From Candidatus Photodesmus blepharonis (lineage in GTDB: Bacteria > Pseudomonadota > Gammaproteobacteria > Enterobacterales > Vibrionaceae), in contig NZ_JGVK01000028.1 of assembly GCF_000731795.2 (NCBI RefSeq), positions 1 to 32,826 on the forward strand: DNA of 32,826 nucleotides, read 5' to 3'. The position numbers and the translations under genes are program-made. Each line of letters begins with the position of its first letter. Positions within the stretch are counted from its first letter, which is position 1. Below are positions 168 to 8,203 of the stretch, one piece after another. Under the pieces are notes generated by a model. That model saw only the letters and a list, made by a program, of their open reading frames with translations. It had not been told where the DNA came from and did no database searches.

Positions 168-803
168 ATGGATCTTTCAGATTTTCGTAGAGAATATGTA
201 AAAACTAGCTTAAGAAGAAAAAATTTGAAGCTTGATCCGATTGATCAATTTAATTTTTGGTTGCAGGAAGCTATCGATGCTAGATTGATAGATCCTACAG
301 CGATGACTATTGCAACAGTCAATAAAGAAGGCCAACCCTTTCAGCGTGTTGTTTTATTAAAGAGTGTTAATAAGTGTGGTTTTGTTTTTTATACAAATTT
401 TGCTAGCCGTAAAGCTAACCATATAAAACTAAATAACAAAGTAAGTTTGCATTTTTCTTGGTGTTCTATGGAGCGTCAGGTTCATGTGACTGGTACGGCA
501 AAAAGACTGACTAAGATGGAAAACGTGAGGTATTTCTCTTCTCGTCCAAAGGAAAGTCAAATCGCCTCTATCGTAAGTAAGCAAAGTAGTAAAATTTCTA
601 CTCATAGTGTTTTGGAAGGAAAATTCTTGGAATTACAACAAAAGTTTGAACGAAGAGAAGTTCCAATACCAAATTATTGGGGAGGGTTTAGAATTCGTCC
701 AGAAACAATTGAGTTTTGGCAAGGTGGCAGACATAGATTACATGATAGATTTTTATTTACAAAATGCGAAAATCGATGGAAAGTTGATCGACTCGCTCCC
801 TAA
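168..803 (+). CDS. pdxH: pyridoxine/pyridoxamine 5'-phosphate oxidase
   Basis: FMN-dependent oxidase that converts pyridoxine or pyridoxamine 5'-phosphate to pyridoxal 5'-phosphate in the cytoplasm, the last step of B6 synthesis and also the salvage step. The 211-aa protein has the family's full length. It shows the LRR(x)nLDPI N-terminus, DPTAMTIATV, the QRVVLLK and YTN.ASRKA FMN-site blocks, the SKQSS block, and a C-terminus ending KVDRLAP exactly as in Vibrio and E. coli. One oddity is that the PLP-site motif WQGGEHRLHD reads WQGGRHRLHD here, with Glu replaced by Arg (codon 729-731); the adjacent Arg and His that contact substrate are kept. It follows the tRNA by about 60 bp and its stop overlaps the stop of the convergent gene by 4 bp. 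Confidence 0.97.
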   Translation: MDLSDFRREYVKTSLRRKNLKLDPIDQFNFWLQEAIDARLIDPTAMTIATVNKEGQPFQRVVLLKSVNKCGFVFYTNFASRKANHIKLNNKVSLHFSWCSMERQVHVTGTAKRLTKMENVRYFSSRPKESQIASIVSKQSSKISTHSVLEGKFLELQQKFERREVPIPNYWGGFRIRPETIEFWQGGRHRLHDRFLFTKCENRWKVDRLAP

Positions 804-2644
804 TTTGTTAGATTGTTGTTGATGTCTCTTACTACTCGAAAACCAGTATAATTTGAAGAAGAGGACTCCGCAAGGAAAAGGCGTTTATCGGCTGCAGCCA
901 TGTTTGGTGAAAAGATCCACGCTCCACCTTTGACGATGCCACGTTTATCGTTGGTCCATTCCCAAACATTGCCAACCATGTCATAAAGTCCAATTTGATT
1001 TGGAGAAAAAGCTCGGACCGGTGAAGTGCCTTGGTTAGACCAAAGTGTTCCACCCCATCCTGTGTTAGCTTCACCGGGTTTGAATTCATTACCCCACCAG
1101 TAATTATCTTGACTGTCGAGAAGAGCTGCAATTTCCCATTCATCTTCGCTTGGTAATCGGTAGGTATAGCCTGTTTCTTTGCTTAACCATTGTGTGTAAG
1201 CTTTGGCGTCGTTTTTGCTTATACAAACTACAGGTGAGTTATTAAATTGTTTAAAGCCAGGATTACGCCAAGAGCCATTAGGAATAGGAATGTTTTTAGA
1301 ATCGTTGATAGTGGTACAGGTATGTTTATTTTCTGCTTCTGTTAGGTAATTAGTGATATTGACAAAGTTTGCGAATTGTTCAACAGTTACAGGAGTTAGC
1401 CCAATTCCGAAAGCATAAGGGAAATTAACTTTTTTCGATAATTTTTTAGAGTTCGAGTATTTGCTTGGAATTAAAGCAACCATACTAGGTGCTTCATGTT
1501 TTCCGGGTAAAGAATCTGCAAACTTATAACCTGCAATCAGTTTGTTTTCTTTTTCCTTTAAGATAGCTTTCAATATTTTGTCTGCATTAATGTCTATTTT
1601 TTTTTGAATAAAAGAATGATAGCCTTCTTTCTCTATAGTAATCATGTGCGGTCCTGTTGGTAACATGATCTCTACAGGAGAGCTACCATAAGAGATCCCA
1701 TCAATTGATATGTTGTCGTTGTGTTGATTTGAATCGACTCTTAATTTTACCCAAGCAACTTTCTCATTTTGTGTAAATTTAGTTGTGCTATGATCGCCAA
1801 AAGCAAAACAATATTTGGATTCTAATTTAAGTAATTTGCACGCTATAGTTTCGCTTGGGTATGTAGCTAGGTTTGCATTTAAAATAATTTTGTAGTGTTT
1901 GTCATCATAGAAACCAGATTCAAAGGTTTCGTAATGCAGTAGGTGGATGTCTAATAAACCGTTATCAACATTTTTTTTGATTAAATCGCTTTCTGTGGTT
2001 TCAGTGATGATTATTTTTTGAAATTCGTCAATTACTTTTTCTTGAGCTAAAGTTTCGGTTTGTTTTTTACATTGTTCAAATGTCATTGTTGTATCGCATG
2101 TATTGGTAAAAATGACTTGCTGTGTGTCATTTCGTTTTAATTCTTTTTTTAAGCGACTAGTACGAGCACGTATTTTCTTTTCTTCTAATTGGATTAAATG
2201 CAATTTAATTGTTTTGATATTAGCTTCTTTTTTTATTAGTTGTGTTTGTAACTCCTTTAACTTTTTTTCCTGTTTTAAACGATTGCTCTGATTTTCTTTT
2301 ACTTCCATCCAAACTTTTCGATAAGAATTTTGTAATCGCATCAAATTTAATTTCGGATTATTAATCATTTTTTGATATTCATGATCAAAATTAGACTTTG
2401 TTTTATTTAGCAACTTATTTAACTTTTCTGCTTTAAAATTTAGCGTGACTAGTTGTTTTTGTTCGTTTTGAATAACTTGTTTACATTCCTCTTTTTTTTT
2501 ATAGGCTTTTGATAGTTCAGAACGTCTATCAAAAATAGCATTCTCAATCTCGATGATTGAGGAATACGTTTGACTAGCCATGACTAATGTTGTTGCTAGG
2601 TAGGTTGATATCACGAATATCAGAACCGCTGAACTTTGTTGCAT
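800..2644 (-). CDS. secreted coiled-coil / PEGA / SUMF1 (FGE-like) domain protein
   Basis: A 614-aa exported protein. Residues 1 to about 23 form a signal peptide. Residues about 25-170 are charged and heptad-like (coiled coil). A middle region carries two cysteine pairs, C-x8-C and C-x9-C. Then comes a PEGA domain (about 300-365, with ISIDGISYGSSPVEIMLP) and a C-terminal formylglycine-generating-enzyme fold (about 385-608) with GNVWEWTND and a final GFRVVRD. The paired cysteines that activate sulfatases in true FGE proteins are absent from the KGGAW...GFR segment, so sulfatase activation is unlikely. Related PvdO/EgtB-like SUMF1 domains do other chemistry or only bind. The domain order suggests a periplasmic, perhaps envelope-attached protein; substrate and partner are unknown. 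It shares an extended region with the upstream gene at 2745-3845 and is probably co-transcribed with it. Confidence 0.85.
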   Translation of the reverse strand: MQQSSAVLIFVISTYLATTLVMASQTYSSIIEIENAIFDRRSELSKAYKKKEECKQVIQNEQKQLVTLNFKAEKLNKLLNKTKSNFDHEYQKMINNPKLNLMRLQNSYRKVWMEVKENQSNRLKQEKKLKELQTQLIKKEANIKTIKLHLIQLEEKKIRARTSRLKKELKRNDTQQVIFTNTCDTTMTFEQCKKQTETLAQEKVIDEFQKIIITETTESDLIKKNVDNGLLDIHLLHYETFESGFYDDKHYKIILNANLATYPSETIACKLLKLESKYCFAFGDHSTTKFTQNEKVAWVKLRVDSNQHNDNISIDGISYGSSPVEIMLPTGPHMITIEKEGYHSFIQKKIDINADKILKAILKEKENKLIAGYKFADSLPGKHEAPSMVALIPSKYSNSKKLSKKVNFPYAFGIGLTPVTVEQFANFVNITNYLTEAENKHTCTTINDSKNIPIPNGSWRNPGFKQFNNSPVVCISKNDAKAYTQWLSKETGYTYRLPSEDEWEIAALLDSQDNYWWGNEFKPGEANTGWGGTLWSNQGTSPVRAFSPNQIGLYDMVGNVWEWTNDKRGIVKGGAWIFSPNMAAADKRLFLAESSSSNYTGFRVVRDINNNLTN

Positions 2645-2744
2645 TGTCTTTCTACTTTAGTAAGAAAAATAATTGATTAATCCGTACAAAAATATTTTTC
2701 CTTAAAACGGCACTTCTTTAATATCTCTAGATAAAAAATTTGAA

Positions 2745-3845
2745 TTAACTATTTTTTTTTTGTTTTAGTTTTGCCCATATAGTGTGATTACCATCGATCC
2801 TAACAGTTCGATTATATGTTTCGTAACGATTTTTAGAAACTGTTATTTGGTGATCACCCTTTGGTAGCAGCACTTCAATTGGAGTGCTTCCGTACTTTAT
2901 TCCGTTGATTGTAACTGAATCGTTGTATTGATCGGAGCGAACAATGACATTGACCCATTTTTTATTGTTCTCTTTTGGCTTTTTCAAAGCTTCACCTTTT
3001 AAACAGTAACGTGCTGAAACATTAAGAAGTTTGCATGCAGCTGTTAATTCAGGTTTCGCTTGTAATTGTAGTTTCATTTGAGTAAAGTGCTCGTTTTCGC
3101 CTTTAAAGCCGCTACGAATAATCTGATTTTCTTGAATGTAGATATTCAATTGAACGTCTTTCACGTTCTGCTTTACGAGAGCTGATTCACTTAAATTAAA
3201 AAATAGTTTTTCGCGGAAAGATTTAACGGCTTTTTGTTTAGTCAGATATATACCCTGGTTCGAACACTCACCAAGCGTCATGGTCATTGAACAGGTTGTT
3301 TGAAAACTCGTTTCAAAAGTACTACTTTTACGCAGCTCAGATTCGAGACGTCTAATTCTTGCAGATACTCGCAATTCCTGCAAATTAGAGAATTCAGCGT
3401 TCAGACGATCCTGCTTTTGTTTAATCTGATCTAGAAGTATCTCACTTTCAGTGATTGCTTGCTTAGCATCAAGTTGATCAGAATGATTCTGTTTTACCTC
3501 AGACCAGGATTCTTGATACTTTTTCTGAAAAGAAATGAGATCAATCTCAGGCTCTTCAAGTAATCGATTGTATTGTTTGTCGAGGTCTAACTTAGCTCGT
3601 TCCTGTTTAAGATTGAGTTCTTCTCCATATCTCGAAAGTCGGTTTAGTTCATTTTTAATTTGTTGAAGTTTATGATTTTCAGCTTCGTAGCTTGATGCAG
3701 CAGAATCAAGTTCGGTTTGCTTTATATTTATTTTCGCATCAATAGTAGCAATTGGATTGCTTTCTTCCGAATATGCTGGTTTATCTATCCCAAAGGGTAC
3801 TAGCGTAAATAATAAAAGAGCTAAAATAGTACGACGTATAATCAT
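2745..3845 (-). CDS. secreted coiled-coil / PEGA domain protein (paralogue of 800-2644)
   Basis: A 366-aa exported protein of unknown function. It begins with a signal peptide (MIIRRTILALLLF..., cleavage probably near AYSEE), followed by a long coiled coil (about 30-165). It then has the same cysteine pairs as its neighbour (C-x8-C in CSMTMTLGEC and C-x9-C in CKLLNVSARYC) and a C-terminal PEGA domain (VTINGIKYGSTPIEVLLP). It stops just after the PEGA domain, where the paralogue continues into its SUMF1 domain, so this is either a domain-loss copy or the ancestral short form. The ATG at 3845 is chosen because an AGGA ribosome-binding site lies just upstream; a TTG 12 bp earlier is less likely. 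The 100-bp spacing to the next gene suggests a two-gene unit. Confidence 0.85.
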   Translation of the reverse strand: MIIRRTILALLLFTLVPFGIDKPAYSEESNPIATIDAKINIKQTELDSAASSYEAENHKLQQIKNELNRLSRYGEELNLKQERAKLDLDKQYNRLLEEPEIDLISFQKKYQESWSEVKQNHSDQLDAKQAITESEILLDQIKQKQDRLNAEFSNLQELRVSARIRRLESELRKSSTFETSFQTTCSMTMTLGECSNQGIYLTKQKAVKSFREKLFFNLSESALVKQNVKDVQLNIYIQENQIIRSGFKGENEHFTQMKLQLQAKPELTAACKLLNVSARYCLKGEALKKPKENNKKWVNVIVRSDQYNDSVTINGIKYGSTPIEVLLPKGDHQITVSKNRYETYNRTVRIDGNHTIWAKLKQKKNS

Positions 3846-4301: not shown

Positions 4302-5216
4302 ATGAATTACTTTGGTGTTTTTTTAAAAGGAATATTAATGGGTGCAGCTGATGTTGTTCCTGGCGTTTCTGGAGGCACTATCGCCTTTATTGCTGGTATT
4401 TACGATATATTACTTAAAAGTATTCGTTCTATTAATTTAGGTTTTATATCGGTTTGGAAAAAAGATGGATTTAAAAACGCCTTTGAATATATTAATGGTT
4501 TTTTCCTTATTGCTTTGTTAGGCGGTATTTTGATTGGTATTCTGACATTAGCTAAATTGGTCTCTTGGTTGTTAGTGTCAAATCCAATCCAGACCTGGTC
4601 ATTTTTCTTTGGATTAATTCTCATATCCGCATTTCATATGTTTAGACAAATGAAAAAACAATGTAGCTTTTTTCGATTTTTGTTTTTAGTATTTGGAGGA
4701 GTGTTTGCATATGTCATTACGATGTTAAGACCGCTTCAATTTGAATTTACAGGCATTGCTATATTATTTGCCGGTTCTTTGGCAATTTGTGCAATGATTT
4801 TGCCGGGTATTTCTGGAAGCCTAGTTTTAATTTTCCTTGGAATGTATACTCCTATGCTAGAGGCAGTTAAGTCATTTCAGATTGATACACTTGTATTGTT
4901 TTTACTTGGTTGTGTAGGTGGTCTTTTGTCTTTTGCACGTTTGATTTATTTTTTTATAAATAAATTTAGGGATGTAACATTGTTGTTTTTAAGTGGGTTA
5001 ATGCTTGGTTCTTTACCTAAGTTGTGGCCTTGGAAGATCACAGTTTCGTGGCGTATTGACGCTAATGGAGAGCTAACGCCTTTCTTAGAGAAGAATCTAT
5101 CGCCATTTGAATTTGAAATTGTATCAGCTCAACCAGCTCAATTAGGATCGGCTGTTATTTTTATGTTTTGTGCTGTTGGATTAGTTTTAGGATTAGAAAA
5201 AATTTCAAAAGGATAA
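4302..5216 (+). CDS. popT: DUF368 / PopT polyprenyl-phosphate transporter
   Basis: A 304-aa multi-spanning inner-membrane protein of the DUF368 family, whose Vibrio cholerae member is reported to recycle undecaprenyl phosphate (C55-P) across the membrane for peptidoglycan and surface-polymer synthesis. The N-terminal signature MGAADVVPGVSGGTIAF is seen at residues 13-29. A second, internally related block (ILPGISGSLVLIFLGMY) near residue 165 reflects the family's inverted-repeat architecture. Eight or more hydrophobic segments are visible. It heads a plus-strand run with three genes for a secreted protein and copper chaperones; the spacing of 32 bp or less suggests one transcript. It is functionally linked to murJ at 19987, since both belong to the lipid-carrier cycle. 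The ribosome-binding site is weak, but the start agrees with relatives. Confidence 0.93.
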   Translation: MNYFGVFLKGILMGAADVVPGVSGGTIAFIAGIYDILLKSIRSINLGFISVWKKDGFKNAFEYINGFFLIALLGGILIGILTLAKLVSWLLVSNPIQTWSFFFGLILISAFHMFRQMKKQCSFFRFLFLVFGGVFAYVITMLRPLQFEFTGIAILFAGSLAICAMILPGISGSLVLIFLGMYTPMLEAVKSFQIDTLVLFLLGCVGGLLSFARLIYFFINKFRDVTLLFLSGLMLGSLPKLWPWKITVSWRIDANGELTPFLEKNLSPFEFEIVSAQPAQLGSAVIFMFCAVGLVLGLEKISKG

Positions 5217-5248
5217 TTTCTTTAGATGTTAATCTGACGTTAATAATT

Positions 5249-5677
5249 ATGCATTTTTTAATTAAAACTTTAATAGGTTTTCTAGCTTCAGGAGTCGGAT
5301 TTTTTTTGTACGACCTTATTGATTGCTTAAATCAATTGAACTCAATAATGCCTATTGAGGAATATTGTATGCTTTCAGATGGGACTTGCATCCAGAATGA
5401 AGTAGTTATGACATTAAATAAAGATATTATTCAACCACTGGTTCCATTTAAGATGACAGTACGATGGAAAAATAGTCATCCTAAAGGGTTGCTGTTGAGT
5501 ATGAGAGGATTAGAAATGGATATGGGGGTAATAAAATACCGCTTACAGTCCATTGGTAATAAGATTTATGACACTGATATTGTCTTTCCAATATGTACTG
5601 CAAATAAAATGACATGGATTGGGACTCTGTCTGATGGGATTGATACTGTTTATCCAGCAATTAGGATCTTAAAATGA
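5249..5677 (+). CDS. uncharacterised exported/membrane-anchored protein between popT and SCO1
   Basis: I do not recognise a named family. The protein is 142 aa from the ATG at 5249. A longer frame opening at 5168 would run inside popT and adds a poor N-terminus, so I prefer 5249. Residues about 3-22 form one hydrophobic segment (signal peptide or anchor), and the rest looks extracytoplasmic. Three cysteines stand out: a CMLSDGTC pair and a later FPICTANKMTW, plus many methionines, which would suit a metal-handling or disulfide-bonded domain. Its stop overlaps the SCO1 start (ATGA), so it is translationally coupled to copper-chaperone genes. A role in cytochrome oxidase assembly is inferred from context only. 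Confidence 0.75.
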   Translation: MHFLIKTLIGFLASGVGFFLYDLIDCLNQLNSIMPIEEYCMLSDGTCIQNEVVMTLNKDIIQPLVPFKMTVRWKNSHPKGLLLSMRGLEMDMGVIKYRLQSIGNKIYDTDIVFPICTANKMTWIGTLSDGIDTVYPAIRILK

Positions 5678-6276
5678 GTAGACATTATTTGCTTGTTGTT
5701 GTTGTTTTTGCTTTTGTATTGGGATTGGGTTTCAGGATTTATTTAGAAATGTCAAAAGACGCTTCTTCTCTTCTAAGTTTATTGTTATTTGGGAAAGATG
5801 AAAATGGAACTGATATTTTTGATTTGCAAGATACAAGAATTCGAATCGTTTATTTTGGTTTTACTCGTTGTCCGGATATTTGTCCAACTTCATTATCTGT
5901 TTTGGCCACTGCGTTAAACGAAATTGATGAGGTGGATAGAGCGAAGTTGCGACCATTGTTTGTATCTTTGGATCCTGAGCATGATAAAGCTAATTTCGCG
6001 CATCAGTACGCGCAGTATTTTCATACGATGATAGAAGGTTTTTCGGCTCCTTTAGAGGTAATAACAGAACTTGCATCCCGCTATGGCGTAATTTTTTATA
6101 AAACCAAACTTGAAGGTTCTCAAATGAAATATACAATTGATCACAGTTCAAATTTTTATTTTTTAGAACCAAATGGTGCTTTAATTGCTAAAGTAGCACA
6201 TACATTTTCTCCAGATCCATTGATTGAAACTATTAATATGATTACTAATACAAAAATAAAGAGGATTTTAGAATGA
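5674..6276 (+). CDS. SCO1/SenC/PrrC copper chaperone for cytochrome oxidase
   Basis: A 200-aa membrane-anchored thioredoxin-fold protein. It has one N-terminal transmembrane segment (residues 5-22), the CxxxC copper site at C66 and C70 (in FTRCPDIC), the distal ligand His157 in DHSSNFYF, and the SLDPE motif near residue 100. All three copper ligands are present, so it should be functional. Family members insert or reduce copper for terminal oxidases on the periplasmic side. It overlaps its neighbours on both sides by 4 bp (ATGA), giving tight translational coupling with the unknown gene before it and the PCuAC gene after it. Confidence 0.93.
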   Translation: MSRHYLLVVVVFAFVLGLGFRIYLEMSKDASSLLSLLLFGKDENGTDIFDLQDTRIRIVYFGFTRCPDICPTSLSVLATALNEIDEVDRAKLRPLFVSLDPEHDKANFAHQYAQYFHTMIEGFSAPLEVITELASRYGVIFYKTKLEGSQMKYTIDHSSNFYFLEPNGALIAKVAHTFSPDPLIETINMITNTKIKRILE

Positions 6277-6686
6277 AAAAGCTTTTTCTGACTTTGAGCT
6301 TGATATTGAGCTCGTTCGTTTATGCAGAAAAAAACGTAGTAGTATACGCTCCCTATGCTAAAACTACACCACTAAACGCAATAAGTGGTGCTGTCTTTTT
6401 TGAAATCATGAGCTTTAGTGATGAAGTTTATACGATTGTATCGGCCGTTACTGATGTAGCCTCTAAAGCAGAATTGCATGATGTGGTTAAAGAGGGCGAT
6501 GTAATGAAAATGCGTCGTATGCATAATATTGAGTTACCTGCAAAAGGTAAGGTAGTGCTAAAACCGGGTGGTTTACATATAATGCTTTACGATCTAAAAG
6601 AAAGGTTGGTGGCAGGTAAAGAGATTGATTTAAAGCTTGTTTTCTCTGATGGTGAAGAGTACACATTCAAAGTACCAATAGTCTAA
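6273..6686 (+). CDS. PCu(A)C (DUF461) periplasmic copper chaperone
   Basis: A 137-aa secreted protein with an 18-residue signal peptide ending in VYA. The family's copper motif has exact spacing: His69, Met80 (11 apart), His102 (22 later) and Met104, matching H-x10-M-x21-H-x-M. PCuAC proteins carry Cu(I) in the periplasm and pass it to the CuA site of cytochrome c oxidase together with SCO proteins. The adjacent, overlapping SCO1 gene supports this. It is the last gene of the operon and is followed by a strong terminator at 6764-6800. Confidence 0.93.
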   Translation: MKKLFLTLSLILSSFVYAEKNVVVYAPYAKTTPLNAISGAVFFEIMSFSDEVYTIVSAVTDVASKAELHDVVKEGDVMKMRRMHNIELPAKGKVVLKPGGLHIMLYDLKERLVAGKEIDLKLVFSDGEEYTFKVPIV

Positions 6687-6763
6687 AAGTAATAAATATT
6701 TTTATTAAATAGTGATCGTGTTTTCGAATTCTTGTATTACGGAGCATTCATGACTCTTGCTGG

Positions 6764-6808
6764 ATAGCCTACCTTTTGTTAGCAACAAAAGGTAGGCTAT
6801 TAATTTAT
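6764..6808 (+). terminator. Rho-independent terminator of the popT-PCuAC operon
   Basis: The arms 6764-6780 and 6784-6800 are perfect 17-bp inverted repeats around a 3-nt loop (AGC). A T-rich tail (TAATTTATTTT) follows on the plus strand. It lies about 80 bp after the PCuAC stop, which is rather far. The tail is interrupted rather than a pure T run, so it may also act as an mRNA-stabilising hairpin. Confidence 0.85.
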
Positions 6809-6988
6809 TTTATCCGGGAAACTGATTCAGATATTAGGTATTTTATTTTCTACCTGCTGATCCTTCCTTTCCGTTTTTGAGTGCGAAATGTCAATTAATT
6901 CTGGACACATGATTTCGAATCGCTAGTATTATCCTGCTTTAGTTTCAATGACTATAATTCTATAAATTGATTCATTACAGGAATGATT

Positions 6989-8203
6989 ATGCAATATAAA
7001 AATACATTTGTCCGTTTTATTCGAGGCAATCTAGTTTTACAAATTCTTGCCGGCATCGTTTTTGGTGTAGTATTGGCAATTTTAGTTCCAGAAAGTGCAA
7101 AAAAATTCGGATTATTTGGAACTCTTTTTGTGGGTGCGCTCAAGGCTGTAGCCCCAATTTTAGTATTCATTCTTGTGGCTTCCTCTATTCTAAATCGAAC
7201 GAAGAATCGACATGCTCGTATGCGTCCAATTGTGCTTTTATATTTTCTAAGTACATTTACTGCTGCTGTAACGGCTGTTGCATTAAGTTTCTTGTTTCCG
7301 ACCACGCTTACTTTAGTTGAAAATACCGTTAGTATTACACCACCTCCTCAGGGTATAATCGATATATTTAACGCATTACTATTTAAGTTAGTTGACAATC
7401 CAATTAGTGCATTGATGAACGCTAATTATATTGGTATTTTAGCATGGGCGGTTGCTTTAGGTTTGGCTCTTGATCGTGCATCAGTAACAACTAAGGCTAT
7501 ATTCCAAGATTTAAGTCATGGTTTATCTAAAGTTGTACACTTTGTCATTCGGTTAGCACCATTTGGTATTTTCAGCTTAGTATCAGTAACGCTCTCTAGC
7601 GCTGGTTTTAGAGCACTAGCTAGTTATGCTCGATTGCTATTTGTATTGCTTAGTGCGATGATACTTGTTGCCCTAGTTATAAATCCGATTATTGTTTTTT
7701 TAAAAACTGGTAAAAACCCTTATCCTCTAGTCCTGAAATGTTTACGTGAAAGTGGAGTTACAGCCTTTTTTACTCGTTCAAGTGCAGCGAATATTCCTGT
7801 TAATATGTTGCTTTGTGAAAAGCTGAAGCTAGATGAAGATACTTACTCAGTTTCAATTCCATTAGGTGCGAATATCAATATGGCTGGTGCTGCAATTACG
7901 ATAACAGTGTTAACTCTCGCTGCTGTTCACACGCTAGGTCTTGAAGTAGATCTATTAATGGCGTTATTACTCAGCTTGGTGGCTTCAGTTTCTGCTTGTG
8001 GTACGTCTGGTGTTGCTGGTGGTTCTTTACTCGTTGTTCCATTAGCCTGTAGTTTATTCGGTATTCAAAATGAAATAGCAATGCAAGTTGTTGCAGTGGG
8101 TTTTGTTATCGGTGTTATTCAAGATTCTGCTGAGACTGCATTAAATAGTTCCACAGATGTAGTGTTTACTGCACTTTATGCGCAACAAAACAAGGAATTC
8201 TAA
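6989..8203 (+). CDS. sstT: sodium/serine-threonine symporter
   Basis: A 404-aa inner-membrane carrier of the dicarboxylate/amino acid:cation symporter family that imports serine and threonine with Na+. Diagnostic stretches are [15 protein letters not shown], the [13 protein letters not shown] substrate-site loop, [18 protein letters not shown], and [19 protein letters not shown] near the end. All align closely to E. coli SstT. Of two in-frame ATGs at 6983 and 6989, the second sits 6 nt after AGGA and is the better start; the first overlaps that site. A TATAAT at 6953-6958 may be the -10 box, but no good -35 was found. Serine uptake would make sense if serA has been lost. Confidence 0.95.

Follow-up and report, generated by a model that had tools for sequence, protein, structure and literature searches.

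What do two adjacent genes for seemingly exported proteins do in the reduced genome of Candidatus Photodesmus blepharonis? The question is raised by a 32,826-nucleotide stretch of this genome (contig NZ_JGVK01000028.1; hereafter the window), on the minus strand of which two genes, here called LONG and SHORT, lie 100 bases apart with both open reading frames (ORFs) intact. The original prediction regarded the pair as the best candidate in the window for an undescribed system. Judged from sequence comparison, LONG and SHORT are paralogues, old duplicates of a widespread exported protein, and together they are a widespread paralogue pair, unstudied as far as we have searched, rather than a new system. 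By its residues or its scores, LONG lies outside the families of the formylglycine-generating enzyme (FGE), EgtB, PvdO and GldK. The explanation that we tentatively favour is a scaffold in the periplasm whose SUMF1 module, a repurposed FGE fold, serves for binding. The genes and their parts are as follows.

800 to 2644, minus strand: LONG gene, 614 amino acids, with export-type N-terminus, helical hairpin, alpha/beta domain, PEGA and SUMF1
2576 to 2644, minus strand: LONG residues 1-23, hydrophobic export-type N-terminus (from hydropathy; cleavage putative)
2138 to 2557, minus strand: LONG helical hairpin, residues 30-169 (model helices 30-95 and 102-169)
1799 to 2134, minus strand: LONG alpha/beta domain, residues 171-282, with C183/C192 and C269/C279 (alignment and model)
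1553 to 1753, minus strand: LONG PEGA, residues 298-364 (PF08308)
827 to 1447, minus strand: LONG SUMF1, residues 400-606; contains C443 and C474, lacks the FGE cysteine pair (PF03781)
2745 to 3845, minus strand: SHORT gene, 366 amino acids, ATG at 3845, with the layout of LONG minus SUMF1
3333 to 3755, minus strand: SHORT helical hairpin (model helices 30-93 and 102-170 of the 365-residue query)
2994 to 3326, minus strand: SHORT alpha/beta domain, with four conserved cysteines (alignment and model)
2757 to 2957, minus strand: SHORT PEGA (PF08308)

LONG residues 24-369 align with SHORT at 30% identity (E 8.6e-50), and PEGA is found in both proteins: in LONG with 56.7 bits (E 2.3e-15) and in SHORT, as its sole Pfam domain, with 69.3 bits (E 2.6e-19), against a PF08308 gathering score of 20.8. 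The FGE-sulfatase/SUMF1 match (PF03781; E 9.7e-46, 156.9 bits against a cut-off of 23.3) is confined to LONG. Hydrophobic windows (Kyte-Doolittle score of at least 1.6) occur only at the N-terminus of each protein, and of 40 long-type rows at least 95% keep the alanine at LONG residue 23; this N-terminal hydrophobicity fits a predicted signal peptide. The C-x8-C and C-x9-C cysteines (183/192 and 269/279 in LONG; 185/194 and 271/281 in full-length SHORT) occur in every one of 40 long-type relatives, a set with two identical rows, and in 25 or 26 of 27 short-class rows, truncated pieces among them. Pfam, the models and the alignments thus bear out the common layout that had been described from the window, namely an export-type N-terminus, a helical hairpin, the two cysteine pairs and PEGA. 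A second invariant cysteine pair, C443 and C474 within SUMF1, had been missed; it is likewise present in all 40 long-type relatives.

The AlphaFold2 model of SHORT, built on a nine-row alignment, has a mean predicted local distance difference test (pLDDT) score of 84.9 and consists of long helices (30-93 and 102-170), an alpha/beta domain (173-273) and strands (296-357) across PEGA; searches and model used the 365 residues read from position 3842, so that these residue numbers are those of the full protein minus 1. The N-terminal half of the LONG model has the same layout. No family or solved-sequence match to the middle alpha/beta domain was found in Pfam and PDB profile searches. With the N-module, the part common to most members, Pfam at E <= 10 returned only PEGA and the related CarboxypepD_reg (20/33), and the PDB profile search gave weak coiled-coil matches only (best E 0.0064). 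Fold searches with the SHORT model placed unrelated helical hairpins on top (Z about 12), with no Foldseek row under E 0.001; the top two Foldseek matches, at about 1e-3, are carboxypeptidases and may match through PEGA.

How widespread is the pair? SHORT was matched in 108 of 197 genomes of the Vibrionaceae and in 151 of 227 genomes of the genus Vibrio (E <= 1e-20), or two thirds of the genus, leaving 76 without a match at that threshold. At least two matches were obtained in 150 of the 151, a tally of matches per genome rather than of loci read; the sole exception is G267, where SHORT stands without LONG, flanked by the AraC gene and a vqmA-like gene. The homologues therefore do co-occur, and the tandem paralogy first read from the window holds for the genus: SHORT lies directly upstream of LONG on the same strand in all 20 Vibrio loci read, separated by 39 to 195 bases; L103, with its broken SHORT, has a gap of 346. 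The two matches lie about 27 kb apart in G304 and on two contigs in G294; three SHORT matches occur in G213 and two in G081, of a non-Vibrio genus. The figure of 195 of 227 obtained with the LONG query takes in generic SUMF1 matches and is not a count of LONG. PEGA occurs twice each in the window genome (G000), G118 and G130, at LONG and SHORT. A scan for operon signals gave 6 promoter-like and 1 terminator-like sites, below the numbers in shuffles (13.4 and 2.0), so that co-transcription of LONG and SHORT is unsupported.

Outside the genus, single genes prevail. A single SUMF1-bearing gene was present in 19 of 20 loci read in other Vibrionaceae genera. In L078 (8157-9428; a 2.6-Mb genome, G021, of another genus), the ORF ends just inside SUMF1 with the N-module and PEGA kept, and a search of the stretch gave no SUMF1 remnant. 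Among 295 genomes drawn from the order, 18 contain the N-module (families f2, 9; f7, 5; f13, 4), mostly as a single SUMF1-bearing gene, and 5 of the 39 order-level matches cover only PEGA or its vicinity; f7 has the N-module in 37 of 118 genomes. The 274 genomes drawn from the class gave two matches beyond that of the window itself, both covering only the PEGA part. In the N-module tree, SHORT, LONG and the single genes each occupy one side of a branch (Shimodaira-Hasegawa-like approximate likelihood ratio test support 99, 98 and 89), and the branching order among the three has a support of 37. This tree comes from a quick search on 84 rows (82 different) with long-branch warnings, the window LONG among them; it leaves out the two LONG halves of L106 and the broken SHORT of L103, and L034 and L091 are the same genome, which doubles one row in the alignments, the tree and the residue counts. 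Broken copies are also seen in large genomes (L036, L103 and L106): LONG of G309 lies in two frames, and SHORT of V. furnissii CIP 102972 (G191) has in-frame stops. The idea of an undescribed system is weakened by neighbours that vary with the family and by the prevalence of single genes among relatives outside the genus, and the pair by itself reveals no new one.

What, then, is the SUMF1 part of LONG? None of 60 long-type sequences (window included, two identical) has a cysteine within 12 residues after [KR]GG[AS]W, and the FGE cysteines of the solved enzyme 6s07 align to other residues or gaps; the prediction that this domain, found only in LONG, is not a sulfatase activator is well supported. 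HxxxHxE is the iron-site motif of enzymes of the EgtB/OvoA/SenA type. It occurs in none of the 84 tree-set rows, and in a set of 20 SUMF1 domains no histidine reaches 80% conservation; an EgtB-type iron site was rejected on these residues. RefSeq names the orthologous pair of Vibrio sp. HDW18 'SUMF1/EgtB/PvdO family nonheme iron enzyme' and 'PEGA domain-containing protein'; the former name finds no support in the conserved residues. Correcting a misleading database name (iron enzyme or sulfatase activator) matters for a protein of this frequency in Vibrio. The best PDB match of the SUMF1 profile is PvdO (5hha, E 2e-29), and the second best is SUMF2 (1y4j). LONG scores 78.4 bits against the PvdO family NF051459 of NCBIfam (cut-off 500), over residues 434-566, and 51.3 bits against GldK (TIGR03525, cut-off 350). 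LONG thus shares PF03781 with FGE (SUMF1) and SUMF2 but lacks the FGE cysteines and carries extra N-terminal modules. Our literature searches found no paper on a protein of the LONG or SHORT type.

The periplasmic scaffold that we favour, at somewhat less than even confidence, would work as follows. LONG and SHORT would be inherited duplicates of a stand-alone exported protein, both directed to the periplasm by their N-termini. Disulphides within the C-x8-C and C-x9-C pairs would hold the middle domain together, oligomerisation would be driven by the helical hairpin, and PEGA would serve as a beta-sandwich contact module. In SUMF1, the former substrate groove of FGE may dock a protein or an envelope ligand, as a hub comparable to PorK/GldK but outside that family; PorK is the closest parallel and the precedent for such a role. 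The duplication may have preceded the divergence of the sampled Vibrio; one copy, lacking SUMF1, would have stayed a conserved structural subunit, and the other would have kept SUMF1 as its working end while its N-terminal half drifted. SHORT and LONG probably co-assemble as partners, and their function would be useful, yet dispensable. Support for a non-catalytic scaffold comes from the L078 relative, in which SUMF1 is absent and the N-module and PEGA are kept. The pair offers a clean natural experiment: a gene was duplicated, one copy lost a domain, the two drifted unequally, and a sister symbiont has neither. It is also a likely case of an FGE fold that serves the envelope without catalysis and does so in a setting other than type IX secretion. 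Anchoring to the cell wall through PEGA, proposed earlier, is unsupported, as no evidence for it emerged; the abstract of the PEGA paper names a 70-residue domain.

Several points weigh against this scaffold. The SUMF1 part of the LONG model has pLDDT below 50, so that its fold rests on sequence. Two of the nine f2 genomes found (L153 and L154) have tandem copies, independent-looking, with SUMF1 in both; because SUMF1 is kept twice there, its loss as a division of labour is not a rule. Because G267 has SHORT only and single genes occur outside the genus, neither copy generally needs the other. The mechanism in the scaffold explanation is inferred. Finally, PvdO, the closest solved match, is needed for a periplasmic oxidation, so that LONG may conceivably be an oxidase.

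That last point leads to the main rival, which we consider unlikely: LONG as a PvdO-type periplasmic oxidase whose substrate would be a small molecule or a component of the envelope, with SHORT as its non-catalytic scaffold. PvdO is the best match of SUMF1 in both NCBIfam and the PDB, no other long stretch of the window LONG is as constrained as SUMF1, and one study (PMC6206403) places PvdO in the periplasm and describes it as necessary for the final oxidation step of the pyoverdine fluorophore. However, only the SUMF1 part of LONG matches, with a score far under the family cut-off; no SUMF1 histidine is conserved and the two conserved cysteines lie off the FGE positions; and L078 keeps the N-module without SUMF1. 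According to that study, purified PvdO was itself inactive, with no detectable cofactor (PMC6206403).

Could the pair instead be decaying and nonfunctional in the symbiont? The divergence of the two genes bears directly on this question. The end branch of the window LONG, at 1.05, exceeds every other in the tree (that of the window SHORT is 0.43), and this protein has an odd residue make-up. Compared with four free-living Vibrio rows, the window proteins show 60-66% identity in SUMF1, 62-65% in SHORT and 65-67% in pdxH, and 39-43% in the LONG coil and 40-46% in its middle domain; between the free-living L090 and L033, the corresponding values are 75% (SUMF1), 80% (SHORT), 84% (pdxH), 65% (coil) and 70% (middle domain). 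Of the positions invariant in 21 free-living Vibrio rows, the window LONG keeps 64 of 69 in SUMF1, 12 of 13 in PEGA, 15 of 21 in the middle domain and 7 of 10 in the coil; SHORT keeps 83 of 94 invariant positions. From these comparisons, both window genes look functional, with the constraint on LONG weighted on SUMF1 and its N-terminal half drifted.

A sister genome gives a second view. G193, a reduced genome of 1.0 Mb, has much gene order in common with the window, and its pdxH is directly followed, 115 bases away, by the VCA0040-like gene; it contained no match to LONG (E <= 1e-3), SHORT (E <= 1e-20) or PEGA. Because this sister is without both genes, the pair appears dispensable in the luminous-symbiont lifestyle. 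Two adjacent luciferase-family genes are present in both reduced genomes, which fits luminous symbionts such as 'Candidatus Photodesmus', and PMC6020299 gives an 80% reduction for genomes of that group. The argument that retention in a shrinking genome implies usefulness consequently holds in part: the pair is kept here, but it was lost in G193 and is unmatched in a third of the genus. Similarly, the frameshifts in sister strains that would point to decay were not found, but a clean deletion was. The absence from G193, the long branch and unusual composition of LONG, its coil identity down to about 40% and the breaks elsewhere (LONG in two frames in L106, in-frame stops in SHORT of G191) would all be consistent with decay. 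Nevertheless, both ORFs are full length with all conserved cysteines kept, the invariant positions of SUMF1 and SHORT are largely retained, and the divergence of SHORT and SUMF1 does not exceed that of pdxH, all of which make decay improbable.

In a bolder version of the favoured scaffold, the two proteins would build a ring or filament in the periplasm of vibrios, in which SUMF1-bearing and SUMF1-free subunits alternate; we regard it as a long shot. Such a PorK/PorN-like assembly would have arisen independently in Gammaproteobacteria, from an FGE fold joined to a coiled-coil/PEGA stalk and then duplicated. PorK, GldK and GldJ, of the type IX secretion and gliding machinery, resemble LONG in being exported FGE folds without both catalytic cysteines. 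According to PMC12421860, PorK, with such a fold, is the docking hub of a multi-subunit envelope assembly and forms an outer-membrane-associated ring with PorN and PorLM. Unlike PorK and GldK, LONG has no apparent lipobox and a coiled-coil/PEGA N-terminal half, and no PorN/PorLM-type genes occur among the neighbours read. In the window proteins, no cysteine precedes residue 54 of LONG or 185 of SHORT, and the cysteine that 14 of 21 Vibrio rows have in alignment with LONG residue 15 sits, as judged by eye, within the hydrophobic stretch.

The neighbourhoods suggest one further rival, which we hold to be very improbable: a part for the proteins in the MSHA pilus or the MreB cell-shape machinery. 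Of 31 f7 loci read, 14 directly follow mshQ and/or precede mreB; others lie near comM-like or spermidine-synthase-like genes, names for which one ORF of each kind was domain-scanned. Yet the window genome and G267 carry a copy without a match to DUF6701 (mshQ-type), which was matched in 6 of 9 genomes searched; these six are the only positive control, none of 14 control genomes being matched. Elsewhere, the neighbours are different. In the Vibrionaceae, an AraC-family gene lies on the opposite strand in 39 of 40 loci, directly adjacent in 37, accompanied by putA (37 of 40), pdxH (32 of 40) and a vqmA-like gene (22 of 40); for neighbours at these loci we presume the names putR, vqmA and lapD/lapG. 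The f2 gene lies between a large oxidoreductase gene and ppsA, and the f13 gene between NlpC/P60-like and NhaD-like genes, as named by eye. No neighbour was common to the Vibrionaceae, f2, f7 and f13 loci read.

That LONG is a true FGE that activates a sulfatase is next to impossible, for although PF03781 matches far above its cut-off, the catalytic pair is missing in every long-type sequence and the only sulfatase-fold match of the window genome lacks C/S-x-P-x-R, the site motif of formylglycine sulfatases. This match (PF00884) is a protein of 593 amino acids with several hydrophobic stretches, which we take to resemble YejM/PbgA.

An anti-phage defence role was also considered and rejected: PADLOC returned for LONG only weak matches to LmuB (E 0.00023) and JetC (E 0.002), mostly in the coiled coil, and none for SHORT. 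In the window, pdxH is kept, and the VCA0040-like gene (4302-5216; PF04018, undecaprenyl phosphate translocase-like) lies on the other side of the pair, divergent from it. The stretch 5168-8203 contains an ORF without a Pfam match and genes for SCO1, a PCu(A)C copper chaperone and an SDF symporter, none of the four being matched in the G193 stretch read.

Two distant proteins, of loci L159 and L160, resemble LONG in having SUMF1, in L159 together with PEGA, but differ in matching the N-module profile only in or near PEGA. The L159 protein adjoins a MotA/TolQ/ExbB-type channel gene and a VWA gene in one gene row (L159:3770-11573). Most of this row is found again near the SUMF1 gene of L160; the two loci are from families f7 and f17, and the arrangement recalls a motor plus ring.

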